Assembly (NCBI RefSeq): GCF_003330725.1
Contig: NZ_CP030840.1
Coordinates: 2,356,001 to 2,420,000, forward strand
Length of the DNA stretch: 64,000 nt
Source: Acidisarcina polymorpha
GTDB taxonomy: Bacteria; Acidobacteriota; Terriglobia; Terriglobales; Acidobacteriaceae
Direction of reading: 5' to 3'
Both the position numbers and the translations under genes were made by a program. The notes beneath the pieces are model-generated. The model was not told where the DNA came from, ran no database searches, and worked only from the letters and a program-made list of their open reading frames with translations. The first letter of the stretch is position 1. Every line of letters starts with the position of its first letter. Positions 21,979 to 47,827 of the stretch are shown one piece after another.

Positions 21979-22923
21979 CTAAGCCGCCGGCTCCCGCTTC
22001 TCAATGCCCTCGCCGACCGGTCCCTGGTGATGCAGTTCTCGATTAAGCCAGACAATCATTTGCCGCTCCCAATCCGGGTCGCCGGGAAGCTTGTACCAGC
22101 CGCCGGTGCCATGATGTCCGCCAGGAATTCGAATGATTTCTGAGCTCACCCCGACGTTCTTCAGAGCGGCATCGAGATTGGTCGCCTCGGTAAATGGAAT
22201 GTACTCATCCTTATCTCCCAGGATCTGCAGAAATGGGGGCGCGTGCTTCGATACATACGTGATCGGAGACGCCGCGCGCAGCGCGGCTGCCTCACCCTCC
22301 TTCTGAATCAGCGGGTCGAGCAGCGCATGAACGTTGGCGTTGAGCGGAACGGTGGCGAAGCTGCTCTGCGCAAAGAGTGTCACCACGGCCTGCACCTCAG
22401 AGCTTTCGCGGTCTACGGGGTCGGCCGCGTGCGGGTCGCCCTTCTCGCCTCGCAGCCCCGCCATGTTGCTCAGAAAGCCGCCAGCCGATCCGCCGACCAG
22501 AGCAATCTCGTTCGGCTCGGCATTCCAGCGTTTTGCGTTGTAGCGCAAGTAGCGAATGGCTCGTTGAACATCCTCGACCATCGCCGGATAGGGGTACTTC
22601 GGGGCCAGACGATAGTTGATGGCGAAGACGGCGTAGCCCGCTGGCGCCAGGAAGTCGGCGCAATACGCCTCGCTCCCATTACGGCTGGTCCCACCGATGT
22701 AGCCGCCGCCATGAATGATGATCGCGATGGGATGGGGGCCGTCGCCCTTGGGCGCGTAGTAATCCATCGTCAAGGGCTCGCCACTCGCCTCTCCATACAC
22801 CAGGTTGCTGTCCGTCGGCGTACGCGTGTTCTGCGCCAGCAGAGCAGGAGATGGCGGGGCAGGAGACAGCAGAACCAGACACAGGCCGGCGAACAGGATC
22901 AGCTTAGATTTAGGGGTCATCAT
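21979..22923 (-). CDS. Exported alpha/beta-hydrolase esterase (BD-FAE/acetylesterase-like)
   Basis: About 314 residues. A signal peptide (LILFAGLCLVLLSPAPPSPALLA) precedes an alpha/beta hydrolase with the oxyanion motif IIHGGGYIGG, nucleophile motif GGSAGG, acid in LGDKDEYIPF and His in PGGHHGTGG. This is the carbohydrate-esterase style fold seen in acetyl- and feruloyl-esterases. GAGGAG precedes the chosen ATG. It is divergent from the GH27 gene and convergent with TonB receptor 2, fitting a role in trimming ester groups from glycans before uptake, though the substrate is inferred only from context. Confidence 0.82.
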   Translation of the reverse strand: MMTPKSKLILFAGLCLVLLSPAPPSPALLAQNTRTPTDSNLVYGEASGEPLTMDYYAPKGDGPHPIAIIIHGGGYIGGTSRNGSEAYCADFLAPAGYAVFAINYRLAPKYPYPAMVEDVQRAIRYLRYNAKRWNAEPNEIALVGGSAGGFLSNMAGLRGEKGDPHAADPVDRESSEVQAVVTLFAQSSFATVPLNANVHALLDPLIQKEGEAAALRAASPITYVSKHAPPFLQILGDKDEYIPFTEATNLDAALKNVGVSSEIIRIPGGHHGTGGWYKLPGDPDWERQMIVWLNRELHHQGPVGEGIEKREPAA

Positions 22924-23185
22924 GAAGGCATCGTGCTCCTCTTGGGGAGAGTGTGGCAAGCCCGGACGCGACGGGCGGTTCGATCATTCGGCGCCCATCA
23001 GGAACGCCGATGCAATCGTATACAATCCCTCTTGCTTCCACATTGGACGGTTTTGCGGTGGCTAATCATTAGTGCACGGTAGTCGAAGAGCAGCCGCAAG
23101 ATCACGGCGGCTCGCGACGATCATGCCTTTTCCGTGCTCCACATCAACACACATCATGTGGAGGGGGCGAGAGAAGAGAGGGATC

Positions 23186-24715
23186 ATGCAGAGAAACCGA
23201 TTTGTTAGAGAGTGGGCGGCTGCCAACGCTCTGATCATCGCTGTACTCGCCGCGGGGTCGATGCTGTCGCAAGCCGCATTCGCGCAGACGCTCGCAGGCA
23301 AATGGGCCGCTACTGACCGCGTCATGGATAACGGCGAGCCGCACAAGATGGTCCTCGATCTGCAGCAATCCGGCGACAAGATCAGCGGAACTCTGGCCAC
23401 GAACAGCAACTCGATTGCCCTGAACGGCACGGCGACGGGAAAGCATTTCGAGTTATTCAGCGCGCGGGACCCTAAGAAGCCATTCCTGGTGGGCGACCTG
23501 AATGGCGGTGAGCTACACCTTGTCATTCGCGACCGGGATACGGTGGTGGCCAAGCCGGCGACCGCAGCCGATGAAATCCCCAAGGTTGAGTACATCGAGC
23601 CGCCAACATCGCTGCACACCGTTGCTTCGAATGGATTGGCTAAAACGCCGCCCATGGGTTGGAACAGCTGGAACAAGTTCGCGGGCAAGATCGATGACGC
23701 AACTGTACGGGCCATCGCGGATGCCATGGTGTCGAGCGGCATGCGGGACGCCGGCTACATCTATGTGAATATCGACGACACCTGGCAAGGAGTGCGTGAC
23801 GCTCAGGGAGTCTTGCAGCCGAACCACAAATTTCCCGACATGAAGGCGCTGTCGGACTATGTGCATTCGAAGGGGCTGAAGCTGGGCATCTACTCCTCGC
23901 CCGGGCCGCGGACCTGCGCCGGCTACCCTGGCAGCTATGGACACGAAGAGCTCGATGCGAAGACCTGGGCCGGCTGGGGCATCGATTACGTGAAGTACGA
24001 CTGGTGCAGCGCGAGGACCATCTACAAAGAGTCGGATCTGCATGCCGTCTATCAGAAGATGGGAGACGCGCTGGCGGCGAGCGGCCGTCCGATGGTCTTT
24101 AGCCTTTGCGAGTACGGATGGGGCCAGGTAGAGAAATGGGGTCCCGAAGTCGGCGGCAACCTGTGGCGGACAACCGGCGACATCCGTGACGAGTGGTCGA
24201 GCATGATCGAGAACGTCGAGAAGCAAGTGCCCACCGCACCATACGCGGGCCCCGGCCGCTGGAACGACCCCGATATGCTCGAAGTCGGGAACGGGCACAT
24301 GACCGATGACGAATACCGCACCCACATGAGTCTGTGGGCGCTGGTCGCGTCTCCTTTACTCGCGGGCAACGACATTCGCGATATGTCGAGCGAGACCAAA
24401 GCAATCTTGTTGAACAAGGAAGTGATCGCAATCGATCAGGACGCATTAGGCAAACAAGCCTCGCCGGTCAAGAGCGGCGATCTCGAAACCTGGATCAAGC
24501 CGCTGGCCGATGGCAGTGTCGCCGTCGGTGTTGTCAACCTCGGATCCTCCTCGGCCGCCGCAACCGTCAAGGCAAGGGATCTAGGACTCACCGGCGAGGT
24601 CAAAACAGCCCGGGATGTCTGGTCTCACACTGATGTCAGCTTCAAAGGAAACACCTACACCGCTACCCTACCCAGTCACGGTGCACTCTTATTGCGAGTC
24701 TCCGCAGGGAAGTAG
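23186..24715 (+). CDS. GH27 alpha-galactosidase, exported
   Basis: About 509 residues with a signal peptide (ANALIIAVLAAGSMLSQAAFAQ). A small N-terminal beta domain (about 27-125, WAATDRVMDNGEPHK...) precedes the GH27 TIM barrel, which starts at TPPMGWNSWNKF. The nucleophile Asp lies in YVKYDWCS (about 272) and the acid/base motif in RWNDPDML (about 360). A C-terminal beta domain follows. The enzyme removes terminal alpha-galactosyl groups from plant galacto-oligosaccharides or galactomannan in the periplasm. A longer frame adds 38 Arg-rich residues and is not chosen. The LarA-like gene follows 144 bases later. Confidence 0.92.
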   Translation: MQRNRFVREWAAANALIIAVLAAGSMLSQAAFAQTLAGKWAATDRVMDNGEPHKMVLDLQQSGDKISGTLATNSNSIALNGTATGKHFELFSARDPKKPFLVGDLNGGELHLVIRDRDTVVAKPATAADEIPKVEYIEPPTSLHTVASNGLAKTPPMGWNSWNKFAGKIDDATVRAIADAMVSSGMRDAGYIYVNIDDTWQGVRDAQGVLQPNHKFPDMKALSDYVHSKGLKLGIYSSPGPRTCAGYPGSYGHEELDAKTWAGWGIDYVKYDWCSARTIYKESDLHAVYQKMGDALAASGRPMVFSLCEYGWGQVEKWGPEVGGNLWRTTGDIRDEWSSMIENVEKQVPTAPYAGPGRWNDPDMLEVGNGHMTDDEYRTHMSLWALVASPLLAGNDIRDMSSETKAILLNKEVIAIDQDALGKQASPVKSGDLETWIKPLADGSVAVGVVNLGSSSAAATVKARDLGLTGEVKTARDVWSHTDVSFKGNTYTATLPSHGALLLRVSAGK

Positions 24716-24859: not shown

Positions 24860-26128
24860 ATGAGTCTTTATTGCGCCATTGGCAGCCCCACGACCGAGTT
24901 ATCGTCACAGCAACTGCAAGCTTTGCTCTCTGAAGGCCTAGCCAAGCTCGGAGAGCGCCGCCGCGTGCTGGCTGTGCCTCCCGACGAGACCCGCTCCCAT
25001 TCACGGGCCGGCGAACTGACCCGCTACGTCTGGGACTATTTCGGCGACCGGCTGCAGGCGATTCTTCCCGCGCTCGGCACCCACTCGGCCATGCGGCCCG
25101 AACAGCTCGACCGCATGTTCACTGGCGTTCCTCATGAGTTGTTCCGCGTCCATCATTGGCGAACCGATATCGAGACGCTTGGGGAGGTTCCGGCGGAATT
25201 TATCCGCGAGCAGTCCGAAGGCAAGCTCGAGTATTCCTGGCCGGCGCAGGTCAACACGCTGATCACGCGCGGCGGATTCGATCTGGTGCTGTCGATCGGG
25301 CAGGTCGTCCCACATGAAGTAATTGGGATGGCCAACTACAACAAAAATATTTTGATCGGGACCGGCGGCGGAGAAGGTATCAACCGCAGTCACTATCTTG
25401 GCGCCGTCTACGGCATGGAGCGCATCATGGGACGCGCCGACAACCCGGTGCGCGCCGTGCTCAACTATGCGTCCGACCACTTTCTAGGGGGATTGCCCAT
25501 CGTCTATGTTCTCACCGTCGTCGGCCGCGCGGAGGATGGACGACTCGCGGTGCGCGGGCTCTTCATCGGCGACGATGCGGAGTGTTTCTACCGCGCCGCC
25601 GAGTTGAGCCTCAAGGTCAACTTCGAGGTGCTCGAGGAGCCGATCCGGAAGGCGGTCGTCTTTCTCGATCCACATGAATTTCACAGTACCTGGCTGGGCA
25701 ACAAAGCCGTCTATCGAACCCGCATGGCACTGGCCGATGGCGCGGAGCTGATCATTCTGGCTCCCGGCGTCAAGGAGTTTGGCGAGGACAAGACGATCGA
25801 CGCGCTGATCCGGAAGTACGGATATCACGGAACTCCAGCGACGGTTGCGGCGGTGAAGGCAAATCCCGATCTCGCCAACGAACTAAGTGCCGCGGCGCAT
25901 CTCATTCACGGCTCCTCCGAAGGCCGTTTCACGATCACCTGGTGCCCCGGCCATCTCACCCGGGAGGAAGTTGAAGGCGTTGGCTTTGAGTATCGTGATC
26001 TCAAAACCATGCTCTCTCGCTACAATCCAGAGAGACTCCAGCACGGCTACAACCGAGTCGACGGAGAAGACGTTTTCTTTATCGCCAACCCCGGGCTGGG
26101 TTTGTGGGCGTACCGCGATAAGTTGTGA
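24860..26128 (+). CDS. LarA-family (DUF2088) nickel-pincer racemase/epimerase homologue
   Basis: A 422-residue cytoplasmic protein. Recalled key residues of Lactiplantibacillus plantarum LarA (His108, His174, Lys184, His200) have counterparts: His in LPALGTHSAM; His in VVPHEV; Lys in NYNKNIL exactly 10 residues later; and His in INRSHYLG 16 residues after that Lys. The two last spacings match LarA exactly, so binding of the nickel-pincer nucleotide and hydride transfer at an alpha-hydroxy acid carbon are likely. Cotranscription with UxaE and an SDR points to a sugar acid, not lactate, as substrate. LarB/C/E cofactor genes are not in the window. AGGGGA precedes the chosen ATG. Confidence 0.85.
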   Translation: MSLYCAIGSPTTELSSQQLQALLSEGLAKLGERRRVLAVPPDETRSHSRAGELTRYVWDYFGDRLQAILPALGTHSAMRPEQLDRMFTGVPHELFRVHHWRTDIETLGEVPAEFIREQSEGKLEYSWPAQVNTLITRGGFDLVLSIGQVVPHEVIGMANYNKNILIGTGGGEGINRSHYLGAVYGMERIMGRADNPVRAVLNYASDHFLGGLPIVYVLTVVGRAEDGRLAVRGLFIGDDAECFYRAAELSLKVNFEVLEEPIRKAVVFLDPHEFHSTWLGNKAVYRTRMALADGAELIILAPGVKEFGEDKTIDALIRKYGYHGTPATVAAVKANPDLANELSAAAHLIHGSSEGRFTITWCPGHLTREEVEGVGFEYRDLKTMLSRYNPERLQHGYNRVDGEDVFFIANPGLGLWAYRDKL

Positions 26129-26145
26129 AATGAGGGACATCTAGA

Positions 26146-27411
26146 ATGGCAAGTGGAGCAATGAAGCTTAGCAAATATTCCATCGGAACCGGCGACCGGT
26201 TCGGGCATCAGGCAAAGGCGCAGTTGCAAGCGTGCGTCCAGGCGCTCGACCGCGGGACCGAGATAGCGCCTGTCTGGAACAAGTCGAATCGCGAACACAC
26301 CATCATCGGGTCGGAGCCGGATTCAACTCGACGCGCGGCCGATGAGGCGGTCCAAGCACTGCATTGGGAAAAGGCTTACTTCTGCGACGCCGACCATATC
26401 ACTCTCCAGACCGTGGAACGGTATCTCGCGCCATGCGATTTCTACACCATCGACGTTGCCGATGCGATCGGCAAGCCCGCGCCTGCCGCGGCGATCGAGG
26501 CCTTTGTCAAACGTCACCCCGAGCTGCTGGGTCAGATTCAGTTGGAGGGCATTGAGGAAAGCTTCGCAATTACACCCGAAGACCTGCAGCAGACTGGTGA
26601 AAAATTTCTAGCGGCAGTGAAACAGGCGGGCGAGGTCTATCGCAAGATCGAGGGTGCGAAGGGCAAAGGCAACTTCGTTCCCGAAGTCTCGATGGACGAG
26701 ACCGACCGCGCGCAAAGTCCGGTTGAGCTGCTGATCATTCTCGCGGCCATTGCCGACGAGGGCATCCCGATTCAAACGATTGCTCCCAAGTTCAGCGGCC
26801 GGTTCAACAAGGGAGTGGATTATGTCGGCAACGTAGGCCAGTTCGAACGCGAGATGGCGCTCGATATAGCGGCCATCGCCTACGCGGTACGCCAGTACGG
26901 ATTGCCCGAAAATCTCAAACTGAGCGTGCATTCCGGCAGCGACAAGTTCTCGATTTATCCGGCGATACGCGCGAACATGCAGCGGTTCGATGCAGGCGTC
27001 CACCTGAAAACCGCCGGGACCACATGGCTAGAAGAGCTCATTGGCCTGGCCGAGTCGGGCGGCGATGGCCTGGCCCTGGCCAAGGAGATTTATGCGGAGG
27101 CTTTCGCACACCGCGAAGAGCTGTGCGCGCCGTACGCGACGGTGATCGACATCGATCCAGCGAAGCTGCCGTCGCCGCAGGAGGTTGCGGGATGGTCTTC
27201 GGAGCAGTACACGTCGGCGCTGCGCCATGTCCCGAACTCTGCGGCTTATAACAGCAGCTTCCGGCAACTGCTTCATGTCGGCTTCAAGGTAGCTGCCAAG
27301 CTAGGCCGCCGATATCTTGATCTGCTCGAAGCCAACGAGGCGATCATCGCTCGGAATGTGACGGAGAATCTCTACGACCGGCACATCGTTCCCGTCTTCC
27401 TGGGCAAGTAG
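26146..27411 (+). CDS. uxaE: Tagaturonate epimerase family protein (UxaE)
   Basis: The 421-residue protein matches the UxaE family in length and in its core segments (YSIGTGDRFGHQ, FYTIDVADAIG, TIAPKFSGRFNKGVDYVGN, LKLSVHSGSDKFSIYP). UxaE, first described in Thermotoga maritima, interconverts D-tagaturonate and D-fructuronate in hexuronate catabolism. Conserved His, Asp and Lys residues in SVHSGSDKF are likely active-site residues. The gene begins 17 bases after the LarA-like stop with GAGGG in range, and an SDR gene follows after 66 bases, so the three form an operon. Galacturonate from pectin is the probable source. Confidence 0.88.
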   Translation: MASGAMKLSKYSIGTGDRFGHQAKAQLQACVQALDRGTEIAPVWNKSNREHTIIGSEPDSTRRAADEAVQALHWEKAYFCDADHITLQTVERYLAPCDFYTIDVADAIGKPAPAAAIEAFVKRHPELLGQIQLEGIEESFAITPEDLQQTGEKFLAAVKQAGEVYRKIEGAKGKGNFVPEVSMDETDRAQSPVELLIILAAIADEGIPIQTIAPKFSGRFNKGVDYVGNVGQFEREMALDIAAIAYAVRQYGLPENLKLSVHSGSDKFSIYPAIRANMQRFDAGVHLKTAGTTWLEELIGLAESGGDGLALAKEIYAEAFAHREELCAPYATVIDIDPAKLPSPQEVAGWSSEQYTSALRHVPNSAAYNSSFRQLLHVGFKVAAKLGRRYLDLLEANEAIIARNVTENLYDRHIVPVFLGK

Positions 27412-27477
27412 CCCGGGACAATGTTTCTAGAGAATGCCGGCCGCCGGTAGTATCGCCTTAAACGTAATGGAGAAAGA

Positions 27478-28251
27478 ATGACCGACATTTTTAGCCTTCA
27501 CGGAAAAACCGCGGTAGTCCTCGGCGGCACCTCCGGTATTGGCCGCACGTTGAGTCTGGGCCTGGCCGATGCCGGGGCCGATGTCATCGCCTCGGCCAGG
27601 CGGCAGCAGCAGGTGGAGGAGACGGCCGACGAGATCGAGCAGCGCGGACGCAAGAGCCTGCGCCTGACTGCCGACATGAGCGATCGCGGCTCGCTCGAAA
27701 GGCTGCTCGCTGCTACTCTCGATGCTTTTGGAGACGTGCACATCCTCATCAACTGTGCCGGAAGGATCAAGCGCACGCCGACCCTTACGATGCCTGAAGA
27801 CGAGTGGGCAAGCATTATCGACACCAACCTGACCGGGACGCTGCGTTCCTGCCAGATCTTTGGCGCACATATGCTGGAGCGCGGCTACGGGCGCATCGTC
27901 AACATCGCTTCGCTGAACAGCTTTGTCGCGCTCAACGAAGTCGCCGCTTATGCTGCCAGCAAGTCAGGGGTCGTCTCGCTGACGCGTTCGCTTGCGGTTG
28001 AGTGGTCCCGACAGGGGGTTACGGTGAACGCGATCGCTCCCGGCGTCTTCCGCACTGCGCTGAATGCCGACCTGCTGGATAACACTCCGCGCGGCAAGGA
28101 GCTGCTCATGCGGACCCCGATGGGCCGCTTCGGCAAGACGGAAGAGCTGGTCGGCGCAGCGGTGTATCTCGCCTCCGACGCCTCGTCCTTTGTAACCGGG
28201 CAGACCTTGGTCGTCGACGGAGGCTTCCTGGCCAGCGGAGTCAACCAGTAG
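27478..28251 (+). CDS. KduD-like short-chain dehydrogenase
   Basis: A 257-residue classical SDR. The cofactor motif GGTSGIGR is near residue 18, NCAG near 91, catalytic Ser in NIASLNSF and Tyr/Lys in YAASKSG. SDRs of this subgroup (KduD, gluconate 5-dehydrogenase, fructuronate reductase types) act on keto sugar acids. With UxaE and the LarA homologue upstream it probably reduces or oxidises the keto acid produced there; fructuronate to mannonate is one option. AGGAGA-like GGAGAAAG precedes the ATG. It ends convergently with the thioesterase gene. Confidence 0.85.
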   Translation: MTDIFSLHGKTAVVLGGTSGIGRTLSLGLADAGADVIASARRQQQVEETADEIEQRGRKSLRLTADMSDRGSLERLLAATLDAFGDVHILINCAGRIKRTPTLTMPEDEWASIIDTNLTGTLRSCQIFGAHMLERGYGRIVNIASLNSFVALNEVAAYAASKSGVVSLTRSLAVEWSRQGVTVNAIAPGVFRTALNADLLDNTPRGKELLMRTPMGRFGKTEELVGAAVYLASDASSFVTGQTLVVDGGFLASGVNQ

Positions 28252-28926: not shown

Positions 28927-30087
28927 TTGAGGACAAGGAGACATTTTCTGGCAGGGGTGGCGGTCGCGCCCTGGCTGGCACATGACCTGGCATGGGCCAA
29001 GGCTAGCGGCGACGACACGCTTTTCGTAGGCACCGGCACCAACACCGGAAGCAAGGGAATTTACGCGTACCGCTTCGATGCCGCGAAGGGCTCACTGGAA
29101 TCGCTGGGTGTCGCCGCGGAGGCGCCCTCGCCATCATTTCTCGCGCTCTCGCCGGATGGTAAGGTACTGTTCGCGGTGAACGAAGTGGATTCCTACCAGG
29201 GAGCGAAGACCGGGGCGGTGAGCAGCTACGCGCTCGACCGAGGTGCGGGCAAGCTCACCCTGATCAACACCGTTGCCTCGGGAGGCTCTGGACCTTGTCA
29301 TCTGACGACCGACCACACCGGCCGCGTCCTGCTGGTGGCGAATTATAGCGGGGGCAGCGCGGCATCTTTCCAGATCGGCGCGGACGGCAAGCTTAGCGAA
29401 GCCGTCTCGGAGTTCCATTACCCGTCGAATGGCCCGGGCGCGGGTCAGGACAAGGAACGCCAGAACGCTTCGCACGCGCACCGCGCAACCGTTCCTCCCG
29501 GCAATCGCTTTGTGCTGATCAATGACCTGGGACTGGACTGCATCCACATCTACCACCTGGATGCCGCTACGGCGAAGTTGACTGCGAACGATCCGGCAGA
29601 GTGGCGGGCGGCGGCAGGATCAGGTCCGCGCGCGCTGCGGTTTCATCCCAGCGGGCGCTGGGCGTACTGCGTGAACGAGCTGACCTCGACGGTCGATCAA
29701 CTCAGCTGGGACGGCGCGGCCGGCAGTCTAAAGCTGATCGAAGAGACTGCTTTGCTCCCCGAAGGCTTTCATGGCATCAGCCGGGCATCAGAGATTGTCT
29801 TTGACAGGAAAGGCGCCTGGGCCTACGTCGCCAACCGGGACAACGACTTTCTGGACAGCTTCGCGGTCGATCCGGGTACGGGAAAGCTTTCTTCGCTGCA
29901 GCGCACACCATGCGGCGGGAAGATTCCGCGGCACATTGCGCTTGGTCCGAGCCAGCACTGGCTGCTGGTTGCGAACCAAGACTCCAATTTGATCGCGGTC
30001 TACCGGCGTGACGTGAAAACGGGCCGATTGGCGGCGACCGGACAGAGCTTCCCGATCCAGTCGCCGCAGTGCCTGCTGTTCGCGTAG
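28927..30087 (+). CDS. Tat-exported lactonase, 6-phosphogluconolactonase-like beta-propeller
   Basis: A 386-residue protein. The start is TTG (AGGA eight bases upstream), and the N terminus TRRHFLAGVAVAPW is a twin-arginine signal. The rest is a seven-bladed propeller of the Pgl/lactonase family, with repeated blade edges (FLALSPDGKVLFAVNE, HLTTDHTGRVLLVANY, ALRFHPSGRWAYCVNE, HIALGPSQHWLLVANQD) and the conserved HAHRATVPPGNRFVLINDLG segment. Export argues against phosphogluconolactone as substrate; a free sugar-acid lactone fits better. It is close to the uronate-type operon but has its own start region. Confidence 0.85.
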   Translation: MRTRRHFLAGVAVAPWLAHDLAWAKASGDDTLFVGTGTNTGSKGIYAYRFDAAKGSLESLGVAAEAPSPSFLALSPDGKVLFAVNEVDSYQGAKTGAVSSYALDRGAGKLTLINTVASGGSGPCHLTTDHTGRVLLVANYSGGSAASFQIGADGKLSEAVSEFHYPSNGPGAGQDKERQNASHAHRATVPPGNRFVLINDLGLDCIHIYHLDAATAKLTANDPAEWRAAAGSGPRALRFHPSGRWAYCVNELTSTVDQLSWDGAAGSLKLIEETALLPEGFHGISRASEIVFDRKGAWAYVANRDNDFLDSFAVDPGTGKLSSLQRTPCGGKIPRHIALGPSQHWLLVANQDSNLIAVYRRDVKTGRLAATGQSFPIQSPQCLLFA

Positions 30088-46025: not shown

Positions 46026-47198
46026 TCAGATCCGCATCGGCATGATGATGTAACGGTAGCGGTATTCATCATCGGCATCCTCGGGACGAACCTGCCCCGC
46101 AGACTGCGCGTCTTTGAATTCGAGCCGCACTTCGCCGGCATTCCCGACCGCTCTCAAGAAGTCGATCAGGTAGGAAGAATTGAAGCCGACTACAATCGCA
46201 TCGAAGTTGTAGGGCGTCTCGATGGTGTCTTCAGATTCGCCCGAGTCGGTCGAGGAGGAGGATATTTTTAGCTCATTCTGCTCCAACCGCATCTTCACCG
46301 CGCCCGAACGTTCGTCCGCAAACTGCGCAACCCGCTGGATCGAAGCCATTAAATCTTCGCTGCGCACCACCACGAATTTGTTATTGTCCCGTGGCAACAC
46401 CGCTTCGTAGTTAGGGAACTGGCCAGTCAGCTTGCGCGAAGTCAGTGTCCGATGCCCAACTTTGAAGAACAAGGTATGGTCGTCATCCGAGAAATCGACG
46501 AACTCGGCATCGCTGTTCGAGAGCAGCGATTGCAGCTCCGATAAAGCTTTGCGCGGAATCAGCGTCCGCTTCTCGCCGCTGATATTCGCCAGCGACTCGC
46601 CCGTCTTCTCCACATGCGCCAGCCGGTGGCCATCCGTCGCCACCATCGCCAGGCTCTCCGCCTTCAGGATCAGCAGCGCTCCGTTGAGCGTGTAGCGCGA
46701 CTCTTCGTTCGAAATCGCAAAGATCGTCTTGCCGATCATGTTCTTAAGCGATGCCGAGGGAATCTTGGTGACGCCTGCCTCAGGAAAGGCTGGAACCTGG
46801 GGAAAATTCGCGCGCGCCATACCGACCATCTTGGTGTTCGATCGTCCCGAGCGGATCTGTACCCAGTGGTTGTCCATCAGCTTGATCGAGATGTCGCCAT
46901 CGCCGAGCAGCTTGATGTAGTCGTAGAGTTTGCGCGCAGGAATCGTGCACGCGCCTGGCTTCTTGACCTTTGCCGCACAGGAAGTCTTGATGCTCTGGTC
47001 GAGGTCGGTGGCGGTAATCGTCAGCCGGTCGTCAGCGGCTTCGATAAGGAAATTCGACAGGATGGGTATGGTCGTTTTCCGCTCCACCACACTTTGGGTC
47101 GCGGTCAGTTCGCGCAGCAACTCAGCGCGACTGACGCTGATCTCCATGGCTCCGCTAGCCACCAGCGGCTTCTCCTGCTCCAACTCTAAGCCCGGCAT
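46026..47198 (-). CDS. dnaN: DNA polymerase III beta subunit (sliding clamp)
   Basis: About 390 residues with the three-fold clamp architecture: MEISVSRAELLRELTATQSVVERKTTIPILSN starts domain 1, GVTKIPSASLKNMIGKTIFAIS domain 2, and the C-terminal strand ends YRYIIMPMRI, where IMPMR is the hydrophobic pocket signature. The clamp tethers polymerase III to DNA. The ATG chosen has GAGGGGG nine bases upstream and gives a 17-residue extension before the usual MEI start (47147), which has GGAG only two bases away; either may be used. dnaA is not in the window. Confidence 0.94.
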   Translation of the reverse strand: MPGLELEQEKPLVASGAMEISVSRAELLRELTATQSVVERKTTIPILSNFLIEAADDRLTITATDLDQSIKTSCAAKVKKPGACTIPARKLYDYIKLLGDGDISIKLMDNHWVQIRSGRSNTKMVGMARANFPQVPAFPEAGVTKIPSASLKNMIGKTIFAISNEESRYTLNGALLILKAESLAMVATDGHRLAHVEKTGESLANISGEKRTLIPRKALSELQSLLSNSDAEFVDFSDDDHTLFFKVGHRTLTSRKLTGQFPNYEAVLPRDNNKFVVVRSEDLMASIQRVAQFADERSGAVKMRLEQNELKISSSSTDSGESEDTIETPYNFDAIVVGFNSSYLIDFLRAVGNAGEVRLEFKDAQSAGQVRPEDADDEYRYRYIIMPMRI

Positions 47199-47827
47199 AG
47201 TGCATCGCCCCCTCTTGTCGGTTTGCCACACTCTACACCACTACAGCCGAAAAGGCACACTGGTGTTTATGGCAGACTGCTACTGCCCTCATTCTAGTGA
47301 GAATTTTGATGGCCGGCCCTGCGGAAAACTGGTCATTCCGGTGGAAGTCAAGGTCAGAACAGGAAATGAGTTTTCCTGGATCGGGATGGATGGAAGCGCC
47401 GTTCTCTATGCCGGCGGCAGTCACCGTCTCCGTCCCAAGAACGACTGCTTTTAAGACTGTTCTTAAAGTCTTATTGAAACCAGTAGCAGTAATAGTTAGC
47501 CGTGGATAAGTGGAAACCGAGCCCAAAACCCATGCCACGGCGCTGCTAGTCTATGGCCCGGATTTAGAAATCCTGTCCTCTCAAAAAGCACAATCAGGAA
47601 AGTCGGGGCCGGTCTCTCACGGAACCGCCGAGTTTCCCAAGTTCTGCACAGTCTCTCCAAAGAGCCTGGTGTGGAAACCATGCGGTGGAAGTGGAAAGCA
47701 TGGTCCCGCACACTGGGGATGCGCCAGTGCGCGCGCCCCGCCTTGCACAGAAGACGCATTTTCCTAAGTTTCCTCAACGCTCGGGATGACTCGTGAGACA
47801 ACAGTTAGGAGAGAGGTTTGAGTCGAG
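47199..47827. other. Intergenic region upstream of dnaN with DnaA-box-like sites
   Basis: About 630 bases between divergent genes. It has no credible gene. TTATCCACGG (minus strand, 47501-47510) matches a DnaA box at most positions, and GTTTCCAC lies next to it. GTGGAAAC/GTGGAAG/GTGGAAAG recur at 47671-47697. An AT-rich palindrome TAAGACT...AGTCTTA lies near 47453-47475. This could be the regulatory region of dnaN or part of a replication origin; the sequence alone does not decide. Confidence 0.35.

Follow-up and report, generated by a model that had tools for sequence, protein, structure and literature searches.

The window analysed here, i.e., a stretch of 64,000 nucleotides from contig NZ_CP030840.1 of the soil bacterium Acidisarcina polymorpha, holds three genes arranged head to tail on the + strand according to the ORF listing, namely (i) a LarA homologue at 24860-26128, (ii) a UxaE-type tagaturonate/fructuronate epimerase at 26146-27411, and (iii) a short-chain dehydrogenase/reductase (SDR) oxidoreductase at 27478-28251. 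The first is assigned to LarAH group 18 (subclade 18a) and regarded as a putative NPN-dependent epimerase from its matches to NF052594, Lar_N and 4NAR, its conserved residues and its position in the tree. The coordinates confirm the gaps given in a preliminary description of this DNA, i.e., 17 bases between the LarA homologue and UxaE and 66 bases between UxaE and the SDR. The reading frame of the LarA homologue is open from 24818, the ATG at 24860 being favoured by homologues and by a Shine-Dalgarno-like stretch, and a purine-rich stretch precedes the start of each of the three genes, which are presumably transcribed as one operon.

The LarA homologue matches the NCBIfam model NF052594 (NPN_18_hexonate, "nickel-dependent putative hexonate epimerase") with 647.9 bits (E 5e-195; cut-off 500) and over its full length, residues 11-417 of the protein aligning with positions 2-410 of the 411 of the model. 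Pfam Lar_N is recognised with 25.6 bits (cut-off 23.3), and a PDB search yields a single match with E <= 1, namely 4NAR (E 2.4e-36), the structure of Thermotoga maritima GntE2 according to Desguin et al. (2020; PMC7583248). As previously described, the His, His, Lys and His residues of LarA are kept, here as H75, H152, K162 and H178, the last three being separated by 10 and 16 residues exactly like LarA H174, K184 and H200; D42, R45 and H75 are the counterparts of LarA D72, R75 and H108, all these correspondences being assigned by motif and spacing rather than by alignment to the LarA sequence. The six core residues are identical in all 131 rows compared (38 of subclade 18a, 88 of subclade 18b and five GntE-like). 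Catalytic and NPN-binding residues stand at the spacings that the preliminary description gave for the lactate racemase LarA, but differences exist: Phe175-Phe176 of LarA is replaced by Glu-Val (E153-V154), again in 131/131 rows, and the gene context is one of uronate metabolism. This Glu-Val loop is a feature named for LarAH groups 18-20 by Desguin et al. (PMC7583248). At the places of LarA Q295 and K298, as located by simple offset from a Tyr taken as Y294 and not by alignment to LarA, an Arg and a Met are found.

The identity of the middle gene as UxaE, already put forward in the preliminary description, is borne out by 165.3 bits against PF16257 (cut-off 27.1) and by matches to solved UxaE structures (best E 1.4e-27); no model matched it in the NCBIfam search. 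The SDR was earlier called KduD-like, which stands as regards the broad kind of SDR, but since it scores 251.6 bits against the KduD model TIGR01832, below the cut-off of 338.85, its identity as KduD itself was rejected. It matches Pfam adh_short_C2, and gluconate 5-dehydrogenases are among its best PDB matches; from its place in the operon, we infer a UxaD-like fructuronate reductase giving D-mannonate.

NPN biosynthesis genes, sought by genome profile search, are present in the source genome as a single cluster of larE, larC and larB, side by side at C1:5999329-6002293 and all over cut-off, some 3.6 Mb from the trio. One LarA homologue was detected in the genome by the family model, and the cluster would serve the LarA homologue of the trio. 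A gluconokinase (GntK) gene, likewise unlinked to the trio, lies at C1:2737873 (158.9 bits, TIGR01313), and no match to UxuA (PF03786) was obtained in this genome.

Among 396 Acidobacteriota genomes, 45 have a match above the NF052594 cut-off, 36 of them in the family of the source, source genome included. Neighbours were counted on the same strand within 4 kb at 37 group-18a loci, window included, of which 32 have at least 4 kb on both sides (L025, on a 3 kb contig, was left out); the window and loci L031, L033 and L044 provided the seeds, the UxaC, ExuT and GntR labels being read from sequence and the GntK label checked against NCBIfam. An SDR (>= 60% identity) neighbours LarAH in 26 of the 37 loci, GntK in 20, UxaC in 20 and UxaE in 19, a transporter-like ExuT in three, and larB, larC and larE each occur somewhere in 14. 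The conservation of gene order is partial: LarAH, UxaE and a close SDR share a strand within 4 kb at 18/37 loci, the window counted, but 10/37 have none of UxaE, SDR, GntK or UxaC within 4 kb. A recurrent arrangement is UxaC-LarAH-UxaE-GntK-SDR with larB-larC-larE adjoining on the opposite strand (L033, L058, L068, L079), and in eight loci (L056, L057, L059-L062, L066, L075), LarAH has GntK or SDR but no UxaE beside it, as would be the case for a route restricted to glucuronate. In the 38 genomes with 18a (the corresponding 38 rows include one identical pair), PF03786 finds a match in 11, above 320 bits in four (G049, G139, G273, G382), and 14 lack a gluconokinase of the TIGR01313 type, the single kinase model searched.

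Taken as a whole, the sequence data make it likely that the LarA homologue is a nickel-pincer-dependent D-mannonate/D-gluconate 2-epimerase joining UxaE and the SDR to gluconokinase. Galacturonate would be converted to tagaturonate by UxaC, tagaturonate to fructuronate by UxaE, with fructuronate as the entry point for glucuronate, fructuronate to D-mannonate by the SDR, D-mannonate to D-gluconate by the LarA homologue through C2 epimerisation, and D-gluconate to 6-phosphogluconate by GntK. With chemistry of the LarA type, one His would abstract the hydroxyl proton, the C2 hydride would pass to the cofactor held by K162, with nickel near H178, and hydride and proton would return to the opposite face. 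The earlier suggestion of a sugar-acid epimerase in place of a lactate racemase is thereby sustained, with the group-18 "hexonate" family match on its side and the malate racemase models far under their cut-offs; its list of substrates can be narrowed to mannonate and gluconate by the presence of GntK in the cluster at 20/37 loci, substrate and direction of the reaction being predicted. This assignment is favoured by the family match, GntE2 as nearest structure, the Glu-Val loop, larE/C/B and GntK in the genome, the failure to find UxuA, the recurring neighbours, the Gnd gene at 11 of 80 loci of the sister subclade 18b and the comparable operon of T. maritima. Against it count the 10/37 loci devoid of these neighbours, the UxuA matches in 11/38 and the missing TIGR01313 GntK in 14/38 18a genomes, as well as the distance of both GntK and larE/C/B from the trio in the source and the high KM for mannonate of the related GntE1.

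This reading narrows the earlier idea and is in line with published proposals, so that it is not new. A hexonate substrate was proposed for LarAH group 18 by Desguin et al. (2020; PMC7583248), who also measured the interconversion of mannonate and gluconate by enzymes of groups 19 and 20, among them T. maritima GntE2; a third GntE is demonstrated in PMC11770544. The route itself was proposed for T. maritima by Rodionova et al. (2012), who noted gntE homologues in Acidobacterium and Terriglobus (as related in PMC6978723). In the portions of this literature considered, no experimentally tested member of group 18 was found. For the curated family NF052594, the assignment proposes a single reaction that can be assayed, and it suggests a way for acidobacteria lacking UxuA to use uronates derived from pectin.

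The closest known counterpart is the system of T. maritima, where gnd-uxaRED-gntEK form a single operon. Its GntE2 (LarAH20, 4NAR) is homologous to the protein of the window (E 2.4e-36), carries a Glu-Val/Ser loop and has UxaE, an SDR-like UxaD and GntK as partners. The two systems nonetheless differ, in that the sequences are distant, the GntK gene of the source genome is unlinked to the trio, and T. maritima has uxuA, unlike the source genome, in which UxuA was not found.

Three other explanations were weighed. The true substrate could be a different acid from uronate metabolism, either a hexonate or an aldarate (altronate, galactonate, glucarate), mannonate then being a side substrate if one at all; for a group 19 relative in a uronic acid context, GntE1, a high KM for mannonate leads Desguin et al. 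to doubt that it is the native substrate and to suggest a uronic or aldaric acid (PMC7583248), but the recurrence of UxaE (19/37) and GntK (20/37) brackets mannonate and gluconate, and UxaE leads to fructuronate and not to tagaturonate reduction, which makes this explanation unlikely. It is likewise unlikely that the kinase acts first, mannonate being phosphorylated by GntK before the LarA homologue epimerises the resulting 6-phosphomannonate to 6-phosphogluconate: such a sequence has been measured with extracts from Lactobacillus suebicus, whose epimerase gene is unknown (PMC6978723), but GntE1 and GntE2 work on free acids (PMC7583248) and the LarA homologue gives no sign of a phosphate site. 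Finally, a lactate or malate racemase with uronate genes beside it by accident is hardly credible and was rejected, since apart from NF052594 NCBIfam gives only two matches, both to malate racemase models and both far below cut-off (25.7 bits against 500, 23.3 against 462), and the uronate neighbourhood recurs across many genomes; with the group-18 "hexonate" equivalog as best match, the HMM comparison by itself likewise places the protein outside the lactate racemases. The mannonate/gluconate epimerase thus stays the preferred assignment.

NF052594 in fact covers two subclades, 18a, to which the LarA homologue of the window belongs, and 18b, about 43% identical to it. The scores divide accordingly, 619-665 bits for 18a and 571-599 bits for 18b, and 18b sequences are 41-47% identical to the LarA homologue of the window, except for a second copy in L158 at 52%. 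A 52-row tree sets 18b on one side of a branch supported at 92/93, a value that rises to 100/100 once the divergent L158 second copy is removed; the base of 18a is without resolution. The 88 rows of 18b contain three records in duplicate (pairs without a difference in the last 380 residues), and the genome sets overlap. As the 80 18b loci (L113-L192) hold UxaC (16 loci), UxaE (11), Gnd (11) and an FGGY kinase (7), the role of 18b looks similar to that of 18a; the Gnd label was confirmed in L139, and the FGGY kinase of L137 falls below both the xylulokinase and the gluconokinase cut-offs.

Unexpectedly, LarC seems scarce in this sister clade. In a genome-wide search of 54 Acidobacteriota genomes, LarB is over cut-off in 51 and LarE in 50; LarC was not detected in any of the seven LarB-bearing genomes holding 18b alone (six Terriglobus and G014), as against 43 of the 44 other LarB-bearing genomes, the exception being G250, which is 81% complete. 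Among 19 Terriglobus genomes, both with 18a-type scores (G396, G404) have LarC, which was not found in the other 17, i.e., 16 with 18b-type scores and G401, where the gene is in pieces and unclassed; 13 of these 17 reach a completeness of 90% or more with contamination of no more than 5%. When the search was carried to 50 genomes from the 80 18b loci, LarB was present in all 50 and LarC in 15, three of these being partial; the remaining 35, in which LarC was not found, include T. roseus DSM 18391 with its complete genome. LarC is therefore not missing from the whole 18b clade, and as the genomes are related, these counts represent non-independent events. In the flanks of the 80 loci, many of them on short contigs, LarB occurs 25 times, LarE 22 times and LarC not at all, e.g., at L116:10001-13547, where larE and larB accompany the 18b gene. 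The LarC search used TIGR00299 and PF01969 for G014, G250 and the six sampled Terriglobus genomes, and PF01969 alone for the others; the LarC-less genomes may hold a divergent LarC or a different insertase.

Two histidines set 18b apart, at positions 78 and 148 of the LarA homologue of the window, i.e., three residues after and four before catalytic histidines, in 87 of 88 rows, compared with 0/38 in 18a and 0/5 in GntE-like rows. Tentatively, 18b may mature its nickel-pincer cofactor without LarC, via LarB and LarE alone, the metal (nickel or other) being self-acquired or supplied by an as yet unrecognised insertase, the two additional histidines perhaps taking part, with 18a as the LarC-dependent counterpart in the same pathway; the presence of LarC in 15/50 18b genomes lowers the standing of this proposal, which we consider rather doubtful. 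No clear candidate for a LarC replacement emerged among the families present in at least six of the 80 loci, namely LarAH, LarB, LarE, SDR, UxaC, UxaE, ExuT/MFS2, Gnd, FGGY kinase and a hydroxyacid-dehydrogenase-like protein. Between larE and larB in T. roseus, stops interrupt two frames and one is open over the stretch read, with nothing recognised in it. A Cys located three positions ahead of the nickel His and common to all of five 18b sequences was entertained as a LarC substitute and dropped, since across the 88 rows the position holds Cys 65 times, Gly 22 times and Asn once. Pairwise dN/dS values in six Terriglobus loci (15 pairs per gene, starts uncurated) lie at 0.07-0.14 for the 18b gene, compared with 0.08-0.28 for larE and 0.07-0.27 for larB; the LarC search had covered three of these six genomes.

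In the parts consulted of the open-licence literature (PMC7583248, PMC11770544, PMC11796402, PMC12611868), we came across no LarA homologue that has LarB without LarC, which leaves possible publication elsewhere; the converse, genomes with larB, larE and larC but without larA, is mentioned in PMC11796402. The 18b genomes call into question whether each LarA-type enzyme requires LarC, and Terriglobus offers a ready test, with LarC in two 18a-type genomes and none found in the other 17.

As for GntE-like sequences, two loci (L047 and L083, in genomes G073 and G121) carry a LarA homologue of this type with the six core residues kept; LarC is unmatched in both genomes, and the LarB and LarE matches are far below cut-offs. 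In the window itself, Pfam scans recognised no pectinase among 19 other ORFs. Directly upstream of the trio (21979-24715) lie a BD-FAE family esterase on the - strand and an alpha-galactosidase on the + strand, which would fit with plant polysaccharide use, and downstream, at 28927-30087, a seven-bladed lactonase-family protein (PF10282) with a twin-arginine-like start, which might act on a sugar-acid lactone. Further along, the - strand carries at 46029-47231 the gene of the DNA polymerase III beta subunit (sliding clamp).
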